From NCBI RefSeq assembly GCF_937910895.1, contig NZ_CALEMI010000085.1, positions 1 through 48,585 of the forward strand: DNA of 48,585 nt, read 5' to 3'. A program made the position numbers and the translations under genes. The notes under the pieces are model-generated. The model ran no database searches and had not been told where the DNA came from. It saw nothing but the letters and a program-made list of their open reading frames with translations. Positions within the stretch are counted from its first letter, which is position 1, and every line of letters begins with the position of its first letter. Source of the stretch: an uncultured Dokdonia sp. Lineage in GTDB: Bacteria; Bacteroidota; Bacteroidia; Flavobacteriales; Flavobacteriaceae. Shown one piece after another: positions 11,771-20,464 of this stretch.

Positions 11771-11929
11771 ATGTCTACAGAAAATACAAATACTGAGATA
11801 TTAAAAGTCATCAGTATTGAAGAATTAAAGCAATGCGAAGGTCTTGACCATCTAACCGATGAACAAGCCTTAGAAATTATAGAAACATTAAAGCAATTAG
11901 CTTTAGTTATCTATCAAACATTAAAATGA
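11771..11929 (+). CDS. 52-residue protein translationally coupled to the recombinase
   Basis: The open frame reaches back to an ATG at 11717, but I prefer the ATG at 11771, which gives MSTENTNTEILKV and a compact acidic helical protein. The first 18 residues of the longer form look like non-coding sequence. The stop TGA overlaps the recombinase start in an ATGA arrangement (11926-11929), implying translational coupling. An imperfect stem (11687-11713, TGCAG...CTGCA) lies upstream. No family recognised; similar small acidic ORFs often precede serine recombinases in flavobacterial elements, with unknown role. Confidence 0.55.
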   Translation: MSTENTNTEILKVISIEELKQCEGLDHLTDEQALEIIETLKQLALVIYQTLK

Positions 11930-13524
11930 TCATGAACGACTTACAAGACTTTGTTTCCTTTGCAAAACGAAACACTAAGAAAATAGCTAGAAATAATAAG
12001 GCGGTTATCTATACTCGTGTTTCTGATTTTAAGCAAAAGGACAATACAAGTCTTGAAAGTCAAAAATTACTTTGTGAGGAATTTGCCTTAAAAAATAACT
12101 ATGAAGTTTGTAAGTACTTTGGAGGTACACATGAAAGTGCCAAAACAGATGAGCGAAAAGCCTATAAAGAAATGCTTACTTATGTAAAGCAAAAGAAAAT
12201 CACCAATATCATCGTGTATAGTTTAGATAGATATTCCAGAACAGGAGGTCTTGCTATCGCGACAGTAGAAGCGTTAAAAAAGAAAGGGATCAGAGTACTT
12301 TCTTTAACTCAAAATATAGATAGCGATACTCCTACAGGAACATTCATGCAAAACTTTCATTTGCTTTATAGTCGTTACGATAATGACATTCGTAGCGAAA
12401 ATACCAAAAAGGGAATGCGTCATCGTATAATGACAGGTTATTGGATGGGAACAGCACCGATAGGTTTTAAAAACAGTAGAAACGATCAAAATATTCCTAT
12501 TATCGTACAAGATGATAAAGCCCCATTTATTAAGAAAGCCTTTCATTGGAAAGCCAATGAAGGACTCACAAATGTTGAAATTGTAGAAAGGTTAAAACTT
12601 TCAGGATTGACTGTCTACAAACAACTTTTATCTAATATTTTTAGAAACCCTGTTTATTGTGGATTAATTACGAATAGTCTTATCGAAGGAAAAGTGGTCA
12701 AGGGAAATCATAAACCTATTGTATCACAAGCACTTTTCTTAAAAGTAAATGGTATTAACAGAAAAAAGAGCGCTCACAATGTCAAGAATGAAAATCTTCC
12801 TTTAAAAACCTTTATGACGTGCGCTTCTTGTAAAAGTCCGTTAACAGGCTTTATTGTTAAAGCCAAAGGGATTTATTACTACAAATGTAAAACGATTGGA
12901 TGCTCTTGTAATCGTAATGCAGAAGTATTACACACCTATTTCAAAGAACTTCTTACCAGATATCAAATTGACAAGCGTTTTTTAAAACCTCTAAAAATAC
13001 AATTAAAATACACTTTGGAATATTCTAATAAGAGCAACAAAGAGCAAGTACCACTTTTAAAAGGTAAATTAAAGGAAGTGTCTGAAAAGATAGAGAAAAT
13101 ACAAGAACGATATGTGATAGGAGAAATAGAAGCTGATTTGTATAAAAAATTCAAAGACAAGTTCTCCCAAGAAAAAGAGGAGATAGAAGCAGAAATCAAA
13201 AAAAGTGGATCATGGAGTTCAAACCTTGAAAAATATATTGAAAGCGCTTTGAAACTACTCTCTAACTTGCATAAAATATGGGAGTTAAGTGATTACACGG
13301 CAAAGCAAAAATTCCAGAAATTACTGTTCCCAAACGGAATCGAGTATCATCGTCAAAACGATAGAGTTCAAACTTTTCAAACAAATGCTATTTTAGAATT
13401 AATTCACAAGATATCAATCAATTGTACCCATAAAAAAAGCGGACAATTGTTATCTAATCAACAATTGTCCGCAGTGGTGACCTCGAAGGGATTCGAACCC
13501 CCAACCCTCAGAGCCGAAATCTGA
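11926..13524 (+). CDS. Large serine recombinase (site-specific integrase/resolvase family)
   Basis: A 532-residue protein. The N-terminal resolvase catalytic domain begins with IYTRVS, where S33 is the expected nucleophile, and has LDRYSR at 100-105. A recombinase domain follows (about 175-285), then a zinc ribbon with Cys at 299, 302, 321, 326 and 328, then a Lys/Glu-rich coiled coil (about 370-430). This is the domain order of large serine integrases. The start overlaps the upstream stop as ATGA. The C-terminus is odd: residues about 505-516 are encoded by the hairpin at 13439-13472 and the last 16 or so by the complement of the tRNA-Arg gene, giving the TSKGFEPPT tail typical of ORFs that run into a tRNA. 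The core enzyme looks intact. It probably catalyses integration and excision at this tRNA. Confidence 0.9.
   Translation: MIMNDLQDFVSFAKRNTKKIARNNKAVIYTRVSDFKQKDNTSLESQKLLCEEFALKNNYEVCKYFGGTHESAKTDERKAYKEMLTYVKQKKITNIIVYSLDRYSRTGGLAIATVEALKKKGIRVLSLTQNIDSDTPTGTFMQNFHLLYSRYDNDIRSENTKKGMRHRIMTGYWMGTAPIGFKNSRNDQNIPIIVQDDKAPFIKKAFHWKANEGLTNVEIVERLKLSGLTVYKQLLSNIFRNPVYCGLITNSLIEGKVVKGNHKPIVSQALFLKVNGINRKKSAHNVKNENLPLKTFMTCASCKSPLTGFIVKAKGIYYYKCKTIGCSCNRNAEVLHTYFKELLTRYQIDKRFLKPLKIQLKYTLEYSNKSNKEQVPLLKGKLKEVSEKIEKIQERYVIGEIEADLYKKFKDKFSQEKEEIEAEIKKSGSWSSNLEKYIESALKLLSNLHKIWELSDYTAKQKFQKLLFPNGIEYHRQNDRVQTFQTNAILELIHKISINCTHKKSGQLLSNQQLSAVVTSKGFEPPTLRAEI
13432..13472 (-). terminator. Intrinsic terminator of tRNA-Arg, lying inside the recombinase ORF
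   Basis: A perfect 13-bp stem, GCGGACAATTGTT (13439-13451) with AACAATTGTCCGC (13460-13472), has an 8-nt loop. On the minus strand it is followed by seven T residues (13438-13432). It starts 2 nt beyond the CCA end of the tRNA, so it terminates the tRNA transcript. Confidence 0.88.
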
Positions 13525-13551
13525 TGCGCTATTCAGTTGCGCCACGAGGCC
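13475..13551 (-). tRNA. tRNA-Arg (anticodon TCG)
   Basis: A complete cloverleaf on the minus strand. The acceptor arm GGCCTCG pairs with CGAGGTC (one G-T pair). The anticodon stem TCAGA/TCTGA encloses loop TTTCGGC, with anticodon TCG at 13515-13517. The T arm contains GGTTCGAATCC, and CCA is encoded at 13477-13475. It reads CGA and possibly CGG codons. The recombinase reading frame overlaps its 3' half from the other strand, making this tRNA the probable attachment site of the element to its left. Its own sequence is intact. Confidence 0.95.
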
Positions 13552-14404: not shown

Positions 14405-14629
14405 ATGAAAAAACTTGAAAGTTTAGAAAACAGCAAATTCAAGTCTAAGGAGCTTAAGAATCCTGGACATTTTGTAGGAGCGACTAGTGAAGCTGATGGA
14501 TCTACATCTGCCTACACTACCTACAGATCTGCTCAAACTAACTGTCCTCCACATCCACCTATGACCGATTCATGGACGGATAAGAGGTATGATTATGATC
14601 AGGTACCTTATGAAGAGGTGTCTATGTAG
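14405..14629 (+). CDS. gwsA: RiPP precursor peptide of the grasp-with-spasm system
   Basis: A 74-residue peptide, MKKLESLENSKF... at the start. The first 25 or so residues are a charged leader. G25-A26 (HFVGA) is a possible cleavage site for the C39 peptidase, with G32-S33 an alternative. The C-terminal part is rich in hydroxyl residues (STSAYTTYRSAQT, 33-45), then has C47 with a Pro-rich segment, then acidic residues D55, D59, D63, D65, E70 and E71. Separated hydroxyl and acidic groups are what graspetide ATP-grasp ligases join as ester or amide cross-links. It lies first in the cluster, followed by a strong terminator/attenuator. Family assignment rests mainly on the neighbours; the symbol is provisional. 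Confidence 0.75.
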   Translation: MKKLESLENSKFKSKELKNPGHFVGATSEADGSTSAYTTYRSAQTNCPPHPPMTDSWTDKRYDYDQVPYEEVSM

Positions 14630-14650
14630 TAGAAATGTAATATCCATTTC

Positions 14651-14685
14651 AGGAAGGAGTAATATGCATTACTCCTTCCTTTTTT
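14651..14685 (+). terminator. Terminator/attenuator between precursor and modification genes
   Basis: A perfect 13-bp stem, AGGAAGGAGTAAT (14651-14663) with ATTACTCCTTCCT (14668-14680), has a 4-nt loop and a T run to 14685. It lies 21 nt after the precursor stop. Partial read-through would give more precursor mRNA than enzyme mRNA, a frequent arrangement in RiPP operons. Confidence 0.9.
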
Positions 14686-14698
14686 AAAATATCAAACA

Positions 14699-15652
14699 AT
14701 GATTTTAATTAAATCAAACGAACAGGATTACTCTACAACACAAGTTATAAAATGGTTGCAGTATTTAGAAAAACCCTACCTACGTATTAATGATACAACT
14801 CCTATAAATAACATCACTACAGATGGGGATGATATCACTATTACTACTCCAACGGTATCTTTTAATACAAAAGATATTAAGCGCTATTGGTACAGACGAG
14901 GTGCATGGGCATCTACACAACGAGGGGTTTTAGGTTCTATAAAAGAGCGATGGTTGTATCTCTATCTTAAATATTTTACCAAAGAAGCAGAGAAAGATAT
15001 TGTAGAACTTATAGAAAGTCAGTTAGAAGGAAATGCTTTAAACACCTTCTTAAATTCTTCAAACATAAATAAAGTAAAAGTTCTTAAAAGTTGTAGAGTA
15101 TTAGATATTGACGTGCCTGAAACCATTTTAACAAATACGAGAGTAGGTGTTTCTACATTTATACAGGCGCACGGAGATGTGATCACAAAAGCGGTAAATA
15201 ATATAGACCCTAATATAAAAGGAGAATGCTTTGTTGATGTGACCACCAAACGAATCACACTAGAGAATGTTGAAGAATTGCCTGAAAAATTTCACATCAG
15301 TGTTTTCCAGAAGCTTATAAAAAAGCAGTTTGAAATACGTACTTTTTTCTTAATTGATCGATTTTACTCTATGGCTATTTTTTCTCAAAGTGACGATCAA
15401 ACAAAAGTAGATTTTAGGAATTATAATTTTAAAAAACCGAATCGCGTAGTTCCTTACGATCTTCCTATGGAGATTGAGAGTAAATTGAGAAAATTACTTG
15501 CCGAATACACCTTAAAAAGTGCATCATTAGATCTTATTTATTCGGAAGAAGGAGATTACATTTTCCTAGAGATTAATCCGATAGGACAATATGATATGGT
15601 ATCTGTTCCTTGTAATTATTATCTGGATCTTGAAATCGCAAAACACTTATAA
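14699..15652 (+). CDS. gwsG: Grasp-with-spasm ATP-grasp peptide ligase
   Basis: A 317-residue ATP-grasp enzyme related to the MvdD/MdnC-type graspetide ligases. An N-terminal preATP-grasp part includes the W/R-rich KRYWYRRGAWAS (about 61-72). Central strands carry EIRTFFLIDRFYSMAIFSQ (about 216-234). The metal-binding end motif is SLDLIYSEEG followed by FLEINPIGQYDMV. It should activate side-chain carboxylates of the precursor as acyl phosphates and join them to hydroxyl or amino side chains. It begins 69 nt after the precursor stop, just beyond the hairpin, and is separated by 2 nt from the next gene. The family is confident; the linkage type is inferred. Confidence 0.9.
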   Translation: MILIKSNEQDYSTTQVIKWLQYLEKPYLRINDTTPINNITTDGDDITITTPTVSFNTKDIKRYWYRRGAWASTQRGVLGSIKERWLYLYLKYFTKEAEKDIVELIESQLEGNALNTFLNSSNINKVKVLKSCRVLDIDVPETILTNTRVGVSTFIQAHGDVITKAVNNIDPNIKGECFVDVTTKRITLENVEELPEKFHISVFQKLIKKQFEIRTFFLIDRFYSMAIFSQSDDQTKVDFRNYNFKKPNRVVPYDLPMEIESKLRKLLAEYTLKSASLDLIYSEEGDYIFLEINPIGQYDMVSVPCNYYLDLEIAKHL

Positions 15653-15654
15653 CT

Positions 15655-15873
15655 ATGGAAGAAGAAGATAAAATCATAGACGCATTTAAAGCAAAAATGA
15701 AAGAAGAACCAGAACTCTTTGAAGCCATATTCTTCTTATCAGAATTTAGCGTAAAAAAAGCGCTCTTAGAAGACATGGGACATCTAAAGATGATTCCATT
15801 AAAAAAATATGATACAGAAAATTTTCCGGTAGACTCAAAATATTCAAAATCAATTTCAAGATGTTTCAAATAA
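15655..15873 (+). CDS. 72-residue protein embedded in the RiPP operon
   Basis: A small acidic, probably helical protein (MEEEDKIIDAFKAKMKEEPELFEAI...). It starts 2 nt after the ligase stop and overlaps the next gene by 13 nt, so it is almost certainly translated and coupled to both. It has no double-glycine-type leader and no hydroxyl/acidic core pattern, so a second precursor is unlikely. A leader-binding or maturation partner would suit its position, but I recognise no family and this is inference. Confidence 0.7.
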   Translation: MEEEDKIIDAFKAKMKEEPELFEAIFFLSEFSVKKALLEDMGHLKMIPLKKYDTENFPVDSKYSKSISRCFK

Positions 15874-16973
15874 ATAAAAATAACCAATCAAAATATGTAT
15901 GCCTTTTTGCTTCTTGTTTAATTACCAAAGGAGAAAACCGAGCATTACTCTCTGACACACAAAGAGGAACCTTTGAGCTTATTCCTAATGATATGGTTAC
16001 CTTTCTTGAACACGCACAACATCTTAGCCTTCACAGTATTTTTACAATGTATGGTGATGATAATAAAGATATTCTTGAATCTTATTTAGATTTTCTATTA
16101 CAAGATGAATATGTTTTTCTTACCGATGAAGAAACCAAAAATCATTTTTCTCCTTTAAAAAAACAGTGGAAATCACCACATATCATTGCAAATGCTATTA
16201 TTGATATTTCTTCATATAACACTACAGCTGTATATTATAATGATATTGTACAACAACTGGATACACTGCGTTGTCAAGCATTACAAATTAGAGCTTATAG
16301 TGTATTAACGATAGATGAAATTACACATCTCATTGCATCTGCAAAAGATACATGTATAGAGTCTGTAGAATTATATACTACCTATTCTGAGTTACTAACG
16401 CCACAAGTACTCAACACCTTATTATTTGAATACACAAAAGTTGCAACAATTATTATCCATAGTGCTCCTTATGCAAATGATATCGAAGTTGTTAAAGGAT
16501 TATCTACCATACATTTTACCGAAGAGGTTCTTGTGGGTGAACAATGTTGTGGTGTTGTTTCTAAAAAATATTTTAACCCAAATAAAGATATGTTTATGGA
16601 ATCTCAATTTCATAATACGTGTTTGAATCGTAAGATCTCTGTAGATAAAGACGGTTTTATAAAGAATTGTCCTTCTATGAGAAACCACTACGGGCATTGT
16701 TCTCAACATACATTGGAAGAAGTGATTGATAATGAAAAGTTTAAGGTACTTGGAAATATTACAAAAGATCAAATAAGCGTTTGTAAAACCTGTGAATTTA
16801 GACATGTGTGCACAGATTGCAGAGCATACACAGAAGACCCATCAGATAGCTACTCAAAACCTTTAAAATGTGGGTACAGCCCTGTAACAAATGAATGGGA
16901 AGAATGGAGTGACAATCCGCTTAAACAAACCGCCATCATTCACTATGAATTACACCAACTCATAAAAGCATAA
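15861..16973 (+). CDS. gwsS: Grasp-with-spasm SPASM-domain peptide maturase
   Basis: A 370-residue protein. The C-terminal SPASM-type region is rich in cysteine: CLNRKISVDKDG, FIKNCPSMRNHYGHC, then VCKTCEFRHVCTDCRAY and a last Cys in KCGYSP, enough to bind one or two auxiliary Fe-S clusters. The N-terminal half has no CxxxCxxC radical-SAM motif; its early cysteines (C14 and C19) are spaced C-x4-C. The barrel is therefore degenerate, or the protein acts through the SPASM clusters or as a leader-recognition partner. It overlaps the upstream gene by 13 nt and ends 6 nt before the exporter. Identity is strongly supported by context. Confidence 0.88.
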   Translation: MFQINKNNQSKYVCLFASCLITKGENRALLSDTQRGTFELIPNDMVTFLEHAQHLSLHSIFTMYGDDNKDILESYLDFLLQDEYVFLTDEETKNHFSPLKKQWKSPHIIANAIIDISSYNTTAVYYNDIVQQLDTLRCQALQIRAYSVLTIDEITHLIASAKDTCIESVELYTTYSELLTPQVLNTLLFEYTKVATIIIHSAPYANDIEVVKGLSTIHFTEEVLVGEQCCGVVSKKYFNPNKDMFMESQFHNTCLNRKISVDKDGFIKNCPSMRNHYGHCSQHTLEEVIDNEKFKVLGNITKDQISVCKTCEFRHVCTDCRAYTEDPSDSYSKPLKCGYSPVTNEWEEWSDNPLKQTAIIHYELHQLIKA

Positions 16974-16979
16974 AATAGT

Positions 16980-19169
16980 GTGAAGCAATTTCCTTTTTAT
17001 AAGCAAGCAGATTTTAAGGATTGCGGTCCCACCTGTTTAAAAATCATAGCAAAGCATTATGACAAGGTTATTCCTATCCAAAAATTAAGAACGTTAAGCG
17101 AAACTACCCGAGCAGGAAGTCACTTGATAGGTATAAGCGAAGCGGCAGAAAAAATAGGTTTCAGAACACTTGGTGTAAAAATAACCTTAGAAGACTTAAG
17201 AGATGCGCCGTTGCCTTGTATTCTTCATTGGAATAAAAATCACTATGTTGTATTATATAAAATCAAAAAGAACACGTTTTACATATCTGATCCCGCACAT
17301 GGCTTATTAAAGTATAACAAAAAGGACTTTTTAAAGTCTTGGCTAGGGCTTAATGTCCCAGAAGATGCAGAAGAAGGAATTACGTTACTTATAGAACTTA
17401 CACCTAGACTTTTTGAAAATGAATATGAAGACAAAGAAAAAAAAATAGGACTCTCTTTTATTTTAAGGTATCTAACACGTTACAAATCTTTTCTCTGGCA
17501 ACTTATCCTAGGACTTGTAGGCGCTAGTATATTGCAATTTATTTTTCCATTTCTAACGCAGAGTATTGTAGATATAGGAATTAAAAATTCAGATATTCAC
17601 TTTATCTATTTGATCCTCTTTGCTCAACTAGCACTTTTTTTAGGAAGAACAGCTATTGAAATTGTACGAAGTTGGATATTATTACATCTGAGTACACGAA
17701 TAAATATTTCTTTGATTTCAGATTTCTTCATCAAGCTTATGAAGCTCCCTATTGCCTTTTTTGATGTTAGAATGACTGGAGATATCCTACAACGGATAGG
17801 AGATCATAGTCGTATAGAACGTATCCTGACCACCTCATCACTAAACGTATTATTCTCTGTACTTAATCTTTTTGTATTCAGTATTGTACTTGCCTACTAC
17901 AACGTAAAGATTTTTACTGTTTTTATCTTAGGAAGTATATTATATTTTTTATGGATCACATTATTCCTCAAAAGACGCGCCGATCTGGATTACAAACAAT
18001 TTTCGCAGGTAAGCCAGGAACAAAGTAAGGTCATAGAACTTATTAATGGCATGCAAGAGATTAAATTACATAACGCAGAAAAGCAGAAACGCTGGGGGTG
18101 GGAATTTATGCAAGCACGCCTGTTCAAATTATCTATCGAAGGTTTAGTATTGGAGCAATACCAAAATGTGGGTTCTGGTTTCATCAACGAACTTAAAAAT
18201 ATTTTAATTACCGTCTTATCAGCGACGTTAGTTATAGATGGCGAAATCACCATTGGAGTTATGCTTGCCATTTCATACATCGTAGGACAACTCAACTCTC
18301 CTATTAGTCAACTTATTTCGTTTGTAAGAGAAATTCAAGATGCAAAAATTGCCTTAGACCGTCTCTCTGAAATTCACGGTAAAGATGAGGAAGAAACAGG
18401 CACAGAAGAGCAAATTAATACAACTACCTACCCTACCAACTTTGATCTCAAAAATGTTTCTTTTAGATATGTTGGAGCTTCAAAAAATGTATTAGAGAAT
18501 CTAAACATCTATATCCCTGAAAATAAAGTAACAGCCATAGTAGGTACTAGTGGTAGCGGAAAAACAACATTGATTAAATTACTTCTTAAATTTTATGAGC
18601 AACAAGAAGGAACGATAAAAACAGGAAATGTTGATTTAAAAAACATAAGTCCTAGTACTTGGAGAAGTCGTTGTGGTGTTGTGATGCAAGAAGGCTATAT
18701 TTTTAATGATACTATTGCCAATAATATTGCCGTTGGAGAAGACTTTATAGATAAAGAGAAACTCATTAAAGCAGTTGAAATTGCAAATATAAAAGACTTT
18801 ATAGAAACCCTTCCGCTATCATATAATACTAAAATAGGGAATGAAGGCGTAGGCATAAGCACAGGTCAGAAACAACGTTTACTCATTGCTAGAGCTGTGT
18901 ATAAAAATCCTGAATTTATATTCTTTGATGAAGCCACAAGTGCCCTTGACGCTAATAATGAACGAGTGATCATTAAAAATCTTGAAGAGTTTTTTAAAGA
19001 CAGAACCGTACTTATCGTAGCACATAGATTAAGTACCGTAAAAAGAGCAGATCAAATCATTGTCTTAGATAAAGGGCATATTACAGAAGTAGGAAATCAC
19101 GATTCCTTAATCGAAAAAAAGGGAGACTATTACCATCTCGTAAAAAACCAGCTAGAACTTGGAAAGTAA
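16980..19169 (+). CDS. Peptidase-containing ABC exporter (C39 family)
   Basis: A 729-residue fusion of an N-terminal C39 peptidase, a six-helix membrane domain (about 160-460) and an ABC ATPase. The peptidase has Q9, C15 in DCGPTC, H88 in HWNKNHYVV and D104 in SDPAHG, so it should be active and cut the leader during export. The ATPase has Walker A GTSGSGKTT (near 522), a variant signature STGQKQR (near 630) and Walker B FIFFDEATSALD. The start is GTG at 16980, 6 nt after the SPASM gene; no better ATG is available before the catalytic region. It overlaps the HlyD gene by one base (TAATG). Confidence 0.93.
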   Translation: MKQFPFYKQADFKDCGPTCLKIIAKHYDKVIPIQKLRTLSETTRAGSHLIGISEAAEKIGFRTLGVKITLEDLRDAPLPCILHWNKNHYVVLYKIKKNTFYISDPAHGLLKYNKKDFLKSWLGLNVPEDAEEGITLLIELTPRLFENEYEDKEKKIGLSFILRYLTRYKSFLWQLILGLVGASILQFIFPFLTQSIVDIGIKNSDIHFIYLILFAQLALFLGRTAIEIVRSWILLHLSTRINISLISDFFIKLMKLPIAFFDVRMTGDILQRIGDHSRIERILTTSSLNVLFSVLNLFVFSIVLAYYNVKIFTVFILGSILYFLWITLFLKRRADLDYKQFSQVSQEQSKVIELINGMQEIKLHNAEKQKRWGWEFMQARLFKLSIEGLVLEQYQNVGSGFINELKNILITVLSATLVIDGEITIGVMLAISYIVGQLNSPISQLISFVREIQDAKIALDRLSEIHGKDEEETGTEEQINTTTYPTNFDLKNVSFRYVGASKNVLENLNIYIPENKVTAIVGTSGSGKTTLIKLLLKFYEQQEGTIKTGNVDLKNISPSTWRSRCGVVMQEGYIFNDTIANNIAVGEDFIDKEKLIKAVEIANIKDFIETLPLSYNTKIGNEGVGISTGQKQRLLIARAVYKNPEFIFFDEATSALDANNERVIIKNLEEFFKDRTVLIVAHRLSTVKRADQIIVLDKGHITEVGNHDSLIEKKGDYYHLVKNQLELGK

Positions 19170-20464
19170 TGAATAATCCTATAGACAATATTAAACTTAG
19201 AAGTGAAGACGTTCAAGCAATTCTTACCAAAGTACCTCATTGGATGATCCGTTGGGGAAGCGGTACTTTCTTATGTATTATCATCCTATTATTAATATTG
19301 AGCTGGTTCATATCATATCCAGATATTGTCAATGCCAAAGCCATACTTACTACCGAAATCCCTCCTCAAAAAATCTATGCTCAAAACAGTGGCAAATTAG
19401 AAGCATTGCTAGTAAAAGATAATGATACTGTGCTAGAAGGACAGCTCTTAGGCATCATAGAAAACACGGCTGATTACAAAGATATCTACACACTCAAAAC
19501 CATACTAGACACCATTACTTTTGAGAACAACAACGTCCTATTCCCTATCAACGAACTCCCTATTTTCTTTTTAGGGGATGTAGAAGATGCCTATACAACT
19601 TTTGAAAATCAGTATATCCTATATCATTTAAATAAGAAATTACATCCCTATTCGTACGAGGTCATTGCGAATGAAACTTCACTTTCTGAATCAAGAGCTC
19701 AGTTACTCAACTTGCAAGAACAGCAAAAACTAAAACAACTAGAACTCACTCTTAAAAGAAATGAGCTTTCGCGAAAAAAAACGCTGTATGAAAAAGGCGT
19801 TATTTCTTCTCAGGAATATGATAATGATCAATTAGAGTATTACAGAGTCGAAAGAGAAATGCAAACATTTACCAACACCATTTCTCAAACAAGGGCCTCT
19901 ATAAGTAATGGCAGAAAGACATCCATTGGCACAAAAATAAATAGAGAAAAAGAAGAAATGTTGATGTATAAAAACGTAGTTCAAGCCTATAATAATCTAC
20001 AAAAAAGTATCCGTTCTTGGGAACTACAATATGCACTAACTGCTGATATTGTAGGGAAAGTAACGCTTATGAAATATTGGAAAGCAAATCAAAACATCAC
20101 ACAAAATGATTTAGTGTTTACCATCATTCCTACAGAGGATATCCCATATATTGCAAAATTAACCACCCCACCTCAAAACGCAGGTAAAATTAGAGTAGGT
20201 CAGAAAATAAATATTAAACTATTTAACTATCCAGATATTGAATATGGCGTATTACAAGGGAATGTCCTTAAAATATCTCAAGTCCCTAATGAAGAAGGAA
20301 ACTACCTGATAGACGCCAGCGTTCATAAGGATTTAATGACTTCGTATAATAAAAAACTCACATTCACTCAAGAAATGCCCGGAGAAGCGAGCATTATTAC
20401 AGAAGATCTGAAACTACTAGATCGTTTCTTTTATAATTTCAAAGAAATAACAAAACGCCAGTAA
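19169..20464 (+). CDS. HlyD-family periplasmic adaptor of the RiPP exporter
   Basis: A 431-residue membrane fusion protein. One N-terminal membrane helix (about 29-50, TFLCIIILLLILSWF) precedes a biotinyl-lipoyl-like segment (KNDTVLEGQLLGII). A long coiled coil follows (about 175-275, SESRAQLLNLQEQQKLKQ...), then the second lipoyl half and a beta-barrel region (PPQNAGKIRVGQKINIKLF). It links the C39 ABC exporter to an outer-membrane channel, but no TolC-like gene is present in the cluster. The start overlaps the exporter stop (TAATG). A GCTTTCGCGAAAA variant of the dispersed palindrome lies in the coding sequence at 19764-19776, encoding LSRK. Confidence 0.92.
   Translation: MNNPIDNIKLRSEDVQAILTKVPHWMIRWGSGTFLCIIILLLILSWFISYPDIVNAKAILTTEIPPQKIYAQNSGKLEALLVKDNDTVLEGQLLGIIENTADYKDIYTLKTILDTITFENNNVLFPINELPIFFLGDVEDAYTTFENQYILYHLNKKLHPYSYEVIANETSLSESRAQLLNLQEQQKLKQLELTLKRNELSRKKTLYEKGVISSQEYDNDQLEYYRVEREMQTFTNTISQTRASISNGRKTSIGTKINREKEEMLMYKNVVQAYNNLQKSIRSWELQYALTADIVGKVTLMKYWKANQNITQNDLVFTIIPTEDIPYIAKLTTPPQNAGKIRVGQKINIKLFNYPDIEYGVLQGNVLKISQVPNEEGNYLIDASVHKDLMTSYNKKLTFTQEMPGEASIITEDLKLLDRFFYNFKEITKRQ

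Follow-up and report, generated by a model that had tools for sequence, protein, structure and literature searches.

A grasp-with-spasm RiPP operon with a new precursor family in an uncultured Dokdonia

The window analyzed here is the entire contig NZ_CALEMI010000085.1 (48,585 nucleotides) from the 4.8 Mb genome of an uncultured marine Dokdonia sp., and it carries, at positions 14405-20464 of the forward strand, an operon for a ribosomally synthesized and post-translationally modified peptide (RiPP) of the grasp-with-spasm type. Six co-directional genes encode, in this order, a precursor peptide, an ATP-grasp ligase, a small 72-aa protein, a SPASM protein, a C39 exporter and an HlyD adaptor; after the second gene, they are separated by gaps of only a few bases or overlap slightly. 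The precursor (74 aa, 14405-14629) consists of a leader at residues 1-26 (MKKLESL...VGA) and a predicted core at residues 27-74. The ligase (317 aa, 14699-15652), which is of the graspetide synthetase type, scores 263.9 bits with TIGR04192 (cut-off 230), and the SPASM protein (370 aa, 15861-16973) scores 337.1 bits with TIGR04193 (cut-off 175). Between them lies the open reading frame (ORF) of the small protein (15655-15873). The C39 peptidase-ABC exporter (729 aa, GTG start, 16980-19169) matches PF03412 (3.3e-35), PF00664 and PF00005, and the HlyD-family adaptor (431 aa, 19169-20464) matches PF13437 (2.2e-08) and, below cut-off, TIGR01843 (2.5e-26). An earlier note on this DNA had named five of these genes on the forward strand at these coordinates and had assigned them to the grasp-with-spasm type. 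Family matches were obtained for the ligase, SPASM, exporter and adaptor genes, and both curated cut-offs are exceeded, which bears out the assignment. The note had also called the set complete; the five named genes are indeed present, but the 72-aa ORF had been overlooked, and the exporter and adaptor genes are no fixed component of such loci, as tblastn found them in only one of 13 (L004, in a second Dokdonia genome).

The cluster is thus of a known kind, a member of the chemically uncharacterized grasp-with-spasm systems of Bacteroidota, while the precursor family is new. It resembles these systems, which correspond to branch 5 in the available sections of Makarova 2022 (PMC8939145), in having both enzymes above the cut-offs in a Bacteroidota host, an upstream precursor with an MKKL start and a small protein encoded right before the SPASM gene. 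It differs from them in its unmatched precursor, in GA instead of GG at the end of the leader and in having its own C39 exporter and HlyD adaptor. According to the same sections, nearly all branch 5 loci encode an "LPL family" protein immediately in front of the SPASM gene. A small ORF occupies this position in all five close loci, and we compared its products with a profile built from 22 hand-picked counterparts from other loci rather than with the published LPL profile. The five homologues scored 24.2, 17.9, 17.5, 12.0 (window) and 10.1 bits, compared to 8.3 bits for the best of 500 shuffled sequences. Judged by these scores, the 72-aa protein belongs to the small proteins encoded at this position, although it has diverged from them. 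The systems are probably graspetide group 14 in the consulted portion of Carter 2026 (PMC13097080), a link that is made by SPASM co-occurrence only. Our literature searches, in which subscription papers were outside the scope, matched TIGR04193 but neither "grasp-with-spasm" nor TIGR04192, and they returned no solved product for this Bacteroidota RiPP type.

The second Dokdonia locus, L004, has the identical six-gene order, with 87% identity for the ligase and 91% for the precursor. In three Kordia genomes (L005-L007), the precursor, ligase, small ORF and SPASM genes recur, and the exporter genes have no match. The operon is flanked by yqeY and ftsZ in both the window and L004. A yqeY match was obtained in 17 of 18 genomes of the genus, and ftsZ follows 60-201 bp after yqeY in 15 of these 17; the operon stands between the two genes only in the window and in the genome of L004 (G213). 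Because this is the case in two of 17 genomes, the cluster represents a unit gained or lost at one site.

The precursor gene is not a chance ORF, which is ruled out by its homologues in other genomes and by mainly silent substitutions relative to L004 (codons 1-66: 0.56 substitutions per synonymous site, dS, versus 0.03 per nonsynonymous site, dN). Its family was found in five genomes, two from the window's genus, which was searched in part, and three from Kordia. A search with the single sequence through 199 genomes of the family matched the window alone, as did a five-sequence profile in 395 genomes of the order, a sample without G213; the same profile found matches in three of 11 Kordia genomes. 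The earlier note had not recognized the core as that of any characterized graspetide. In agreement with this, none of the five members matches an NCBIfam model at an E-value of 10, and the window copy matches no Pfam model at 0.1; this comparison did not include pattern searches with published core motifs.

All five precursors align without gaps over positions 1-65, and T27, D31, G32, S35, T39, R41, T45, C47, P48, P49, H50, P51, M53, D55, D59 and D63 are invariant; a hydroxyl residue is retained by class at positions 34, 42 and 58 as well. C47-PPHP together with M53 forms the longest invariant run of the core. Past position 65, length and sequence vary and only P68 is invariant. The residue blocks of the earlier description (S33-T45, C47 with prolines, D55-E71) are present, and the search for conserved Thr/Ser and Asp/Glu positions that it had called for yielded S35, T39, T45, D55, D59 and D63. 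Its acidic block of residues 55-71 was drawn too broadly, since only the three Asp residues are invariant and the block runs into the variable tail. The leader has the expected MKKL start and upstream position; GG is replaced by G25-A26, and the hydrophobic residues are unusually spaced. When the five-precursor profile was run against 27 hand-picked precursors of sister loci, three of them (12.9, 10.7 and 10.5 bits) scored above all 540 shuffles (maximum 6.7 bits), which fits a shared leader at most and demonstrates no relation between the cores. By eye alone, the core also looked similar to the "TSC..DSD" cores of L024 and L034; this likeness was dropped, as L024a scored at shuffle level (4.8 bits) and L034 fell outside the top ten.

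Hydroxyl-carboxyl cross-linking is the activity of ATP-grasp ligases in this superfamily (Carter 2026, PMC13097080, as far as that source was available), and it can fairly be inferred by analogy for the precursor described here. In the simplest reading of the aligned cores, three upstream hydroxyls would be paired with three downstream Asp residues spaced by four, and the candidate cross-links likely narrow to hydroxyls 35, 39 and 45 and carboxylates 55, 59 and 63, as judged from five sequences of two lineages. Three upstream hydroxyls and three downstream Asp residues are likewise the pattern of rosaritide (graspetide group 21), for which the same partial source gives S8, S9 and T11 with D22, D24 and D26. 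Rosaritide is also similar in its partner-requiring ligase, but differs in residue spacing, in its Actinomycetota host and in the partner itself, which is a PpiC-type isomerase instead of a SPASM protein. The Ser/Thr and Asp/Glu columns of these five sequences are not clearly better conserved than the remaining core columns, and the linkage pattern is for this reason a guess. In a hand count, four of six acidic and seven of 12 hydroxyl columns kept their class, compared to eight of 21 other columns that are invariant, numbers too small to carry meaning.

The SPASM protein may have the architecture of a peptide maturase, without the cysteines of the SAM cluster. Its structure model comprises an N-terminal domain resembling a RiPP recognition element (RRE; residues 10-98) and a half barrel similar to that of radical S-adenosylmethionine (SAM) enzymes (103-230), and its SPASM region carries seven cysteines (C254, C270, C308, C311, C317, C320, C337). 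The radical-SAM motif CX3CX2C, or CX2-7CX2C, was absent from the N-terminal and barrel regions of all 41 family members examined, the window included, and just six of the 41 have even one cysteine in the loop that follows the first strand of the barrel. For this count, L145 (42 aa) was excluded and L151 and L154, two pieces from one genome, were omitted; three of 30 extracts (L045, L055, L058) had been removed from the set as fragments. Structural comparison placed RRE/radical-SAM/SPASM maturases in the top rows, the confidence of the model being low; Foldseek returned nothing at an E-value of 0.001, and sequence profiles against PDB sequences gave chance matches only and no radical SAM enzyme. 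The protein resembles SuiB and related maturases (5v1q, 8vpo, 6efn) in its modelled RRE-like N-terminus and modelled barrel and in its SPASM cysteine set, while it differs from them in lacking CX3CX2C and any sign of SAM chemistry. Because the SAM-cluster cysteines are missing, radical chemistry is probably not performed, and the SPASM protein is probably a leader-binding partner rather than a radical enzyme. The literature search returned nothing relevant on a SPASM protein without a radical domain. Seven loci (L052, L053, L054, L148, L149, L152, L153) have TIGR04193 matches below the cut-off; L052, L053 and L054 lack the CX2CX5CX2C set in the SPASM region, which hints at further loss of cluster sites.

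Two putative expression signals accompany the precursor gene. Behind it lies a terminator-like hairpin (14651-14686, forward strand) with a 13-bp stem followed by a T run, predicted at -22.8 kcal/mol (z -6.5; equaled by none of 200 shuffles). L004, L005 and L007 have hairpins of different sequence at this location, and L006 has none. Upstream of the gene is a weak match to the DUF805b RNA (RF02914; 14348-14378, forward strand; 17.0 bits against a gathering score of 35.6, E 0.0079 in 111 nt), with counterparts in L004 (20.4 bits), L005 (27.8), L006 (32.4) and L007 (29.1), all likewise below the gathering score. These matches end 21-26 nt before the precursor ATG in all five loci (26 nt in the window). 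Among 14 loci included in the scan, both grasp-with-spasm and flank loci, four (L015, L024, L061, L062) have matches above the gathering score ahead of precursors; none was found at the second grasp-with-spasm locus of the window's own genome (L012). A stable fold of the 5' leader was not supported (z -1.3; 20 of 200 shuffles equal), and an H-type pseudoknot in it was drawn by eye only.

The DUF805b element is not specific to these operons, as the scan of ten genomes gave from at least five to at least 58 matches per genome at an E-value of 1, many of them before ordinary exported proteins; 14 control genomes had none over the cut-off. An ATG frame of at least 30 aa starts 17-26 nt downstream at 24 of 25 DUF805b loci (within L098-L137), compared to 89 of 2000 random points for an interval of 15-28 nt, and short GG/GA-leader peptides are encoded at 12 of the 25. 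Among the 16 listed of 28 matches (E 1) in the window's own genome, 14 have an ATG frame at 17-25 nt and seven precede GG/GA peptides. DUF805b looks like a translation-start element common to RiPP-like precursors and other Flavobacteriaceae genes. The literature search found nothing on this RNA, and its location immediately ahead of the ATG of many genes for small peptides provides a lead on it. In the window's own genome, at least four small GG/GA peptides are encoded in an array at L135 (C31:21300-27900), with the element in front of each; one of these peptides scores 20.6 bits with a leader model for class I lanthipeptides (cut-off 22).

A different role for the SPASM protein would be that of an active enzyme, which uses its SPASM clusters, and perhaps a third one bound by C19, C138 and C230, for a redox or thioether modification of C47. 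Retention of these cysteines in the 41 members (C19 in 35, C138 in 27, C230 in 33, the seven SPASM cysteines in 33-40) is in line with this, as are the single, invariant precursor cysteine in its fixed CPPHP context and the thioethers that Makarova 2022 (PMC8939145), in the sections available, proposes for a SPASM enzyme of this branch. The SAM-cluster motif missing from every member and the cysteine-poor loop argue against it. In addition, 14 of the 27 hand-picked sister precursors lack [ST]xC and several have no cysteine at all, so that cysteine is not a general target. We therefore regard an active enzyme as unlikely.

The CPPHP stretch with M53 could also itself be the functional part of a metal- or haem-binding peptide in which the rings only provide stiffness, since no other invariant part of the core is as long and Cys-Pro motifs are known to act in haem regulation. 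The operon itself contains no genes for haem or metal uptake (the wider window was not examined for them), and we give this explanation very little weight. It is similarly improbable that the exporter and adaptor serve a different peptide and merely adjoin the enzyme genes. Their absence from the Kordia and other grasp-with-spasm loci would agree with such an arrangement, but they are joined to the operon by a 6-bp spacing and an overlap, and the whole six-gene unit is kept in L004, inserted as a single piece between yqeY and ftsZ.

Taken together, we favor, with moderate confidence, a model in which the operon produces a cross-linked, secreted peptide. Directly ahead of the start codon, the DUF805b-type element would ensure high-level translation of the precursor, and the hairpin behind the gene would pass only part of the transcription on to the enzyme genes; both roles are deduced from sequence. 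The RRE-like N-terminus of the SPASM protein would bind the leader (MKKLESL..KFKxKELKN) and, together with the 72-aa protein, the SPASM protein would present the core to the ligase, probably without contributing radical chemistry of its own. The ligase would then phosphorylate Asp carboxylates, with D55, D59 and D63 as the best candidates, and the activated residues would be joined to upstream hydroxyls, for which S35, T39 and T45 are the best candidates. This would give at most three ester rings with a loss of 18 Da each, number and partners being predictions. Finally, the C39 exporter would cleave after G25-A26, the predicted site, and presumably secrete the product together with HlyD. The putative product would most likely serve as a protease inhibitor or as a weapon against other bacteria. 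With this operon, a widespread RiPP type of Bacteroidota gains a precursor family whose donor and acceptor positions are fixed.

More tentatively, and with slightly more doubt than conviction, we propose that grasp-with-spasm SPASM proteins in general descend from radical-SAM maturases and that, after losing the SAM cluster, they came to serve as partner proteins with an RRE that load precursors onto the ATP-grasp ligase. If true, graspetide synthesis would have a second partner-dependent form, one that extends across the family, and this would explain why a single ligase lineage serves so many unrelated precursors. The usual view of the SPASM component as a radical SAM enzyme is called into question, and the role of this component becomes simple to test.

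Further grasp-with-spasm loci were noted in the same genomes. In that of the window, L072 (contig C124) is a second such locus and encodes an unrelated 70-aa GG precursor rich in Ser, Thr and Asp, with its own small ORF and SPASM protein and without an exporter. Two Kordia genomes have four TIGR04192 matches each (L073-L078), adjoined by unrelated precursors. In the window, a serine recombinase gene (11926-13524), the 3' end of which overlaps an opposite-strand tRNA-Arg gene (13475-13551), lies to the left of yqeY; this region is probably an integrated element separate from the operon.
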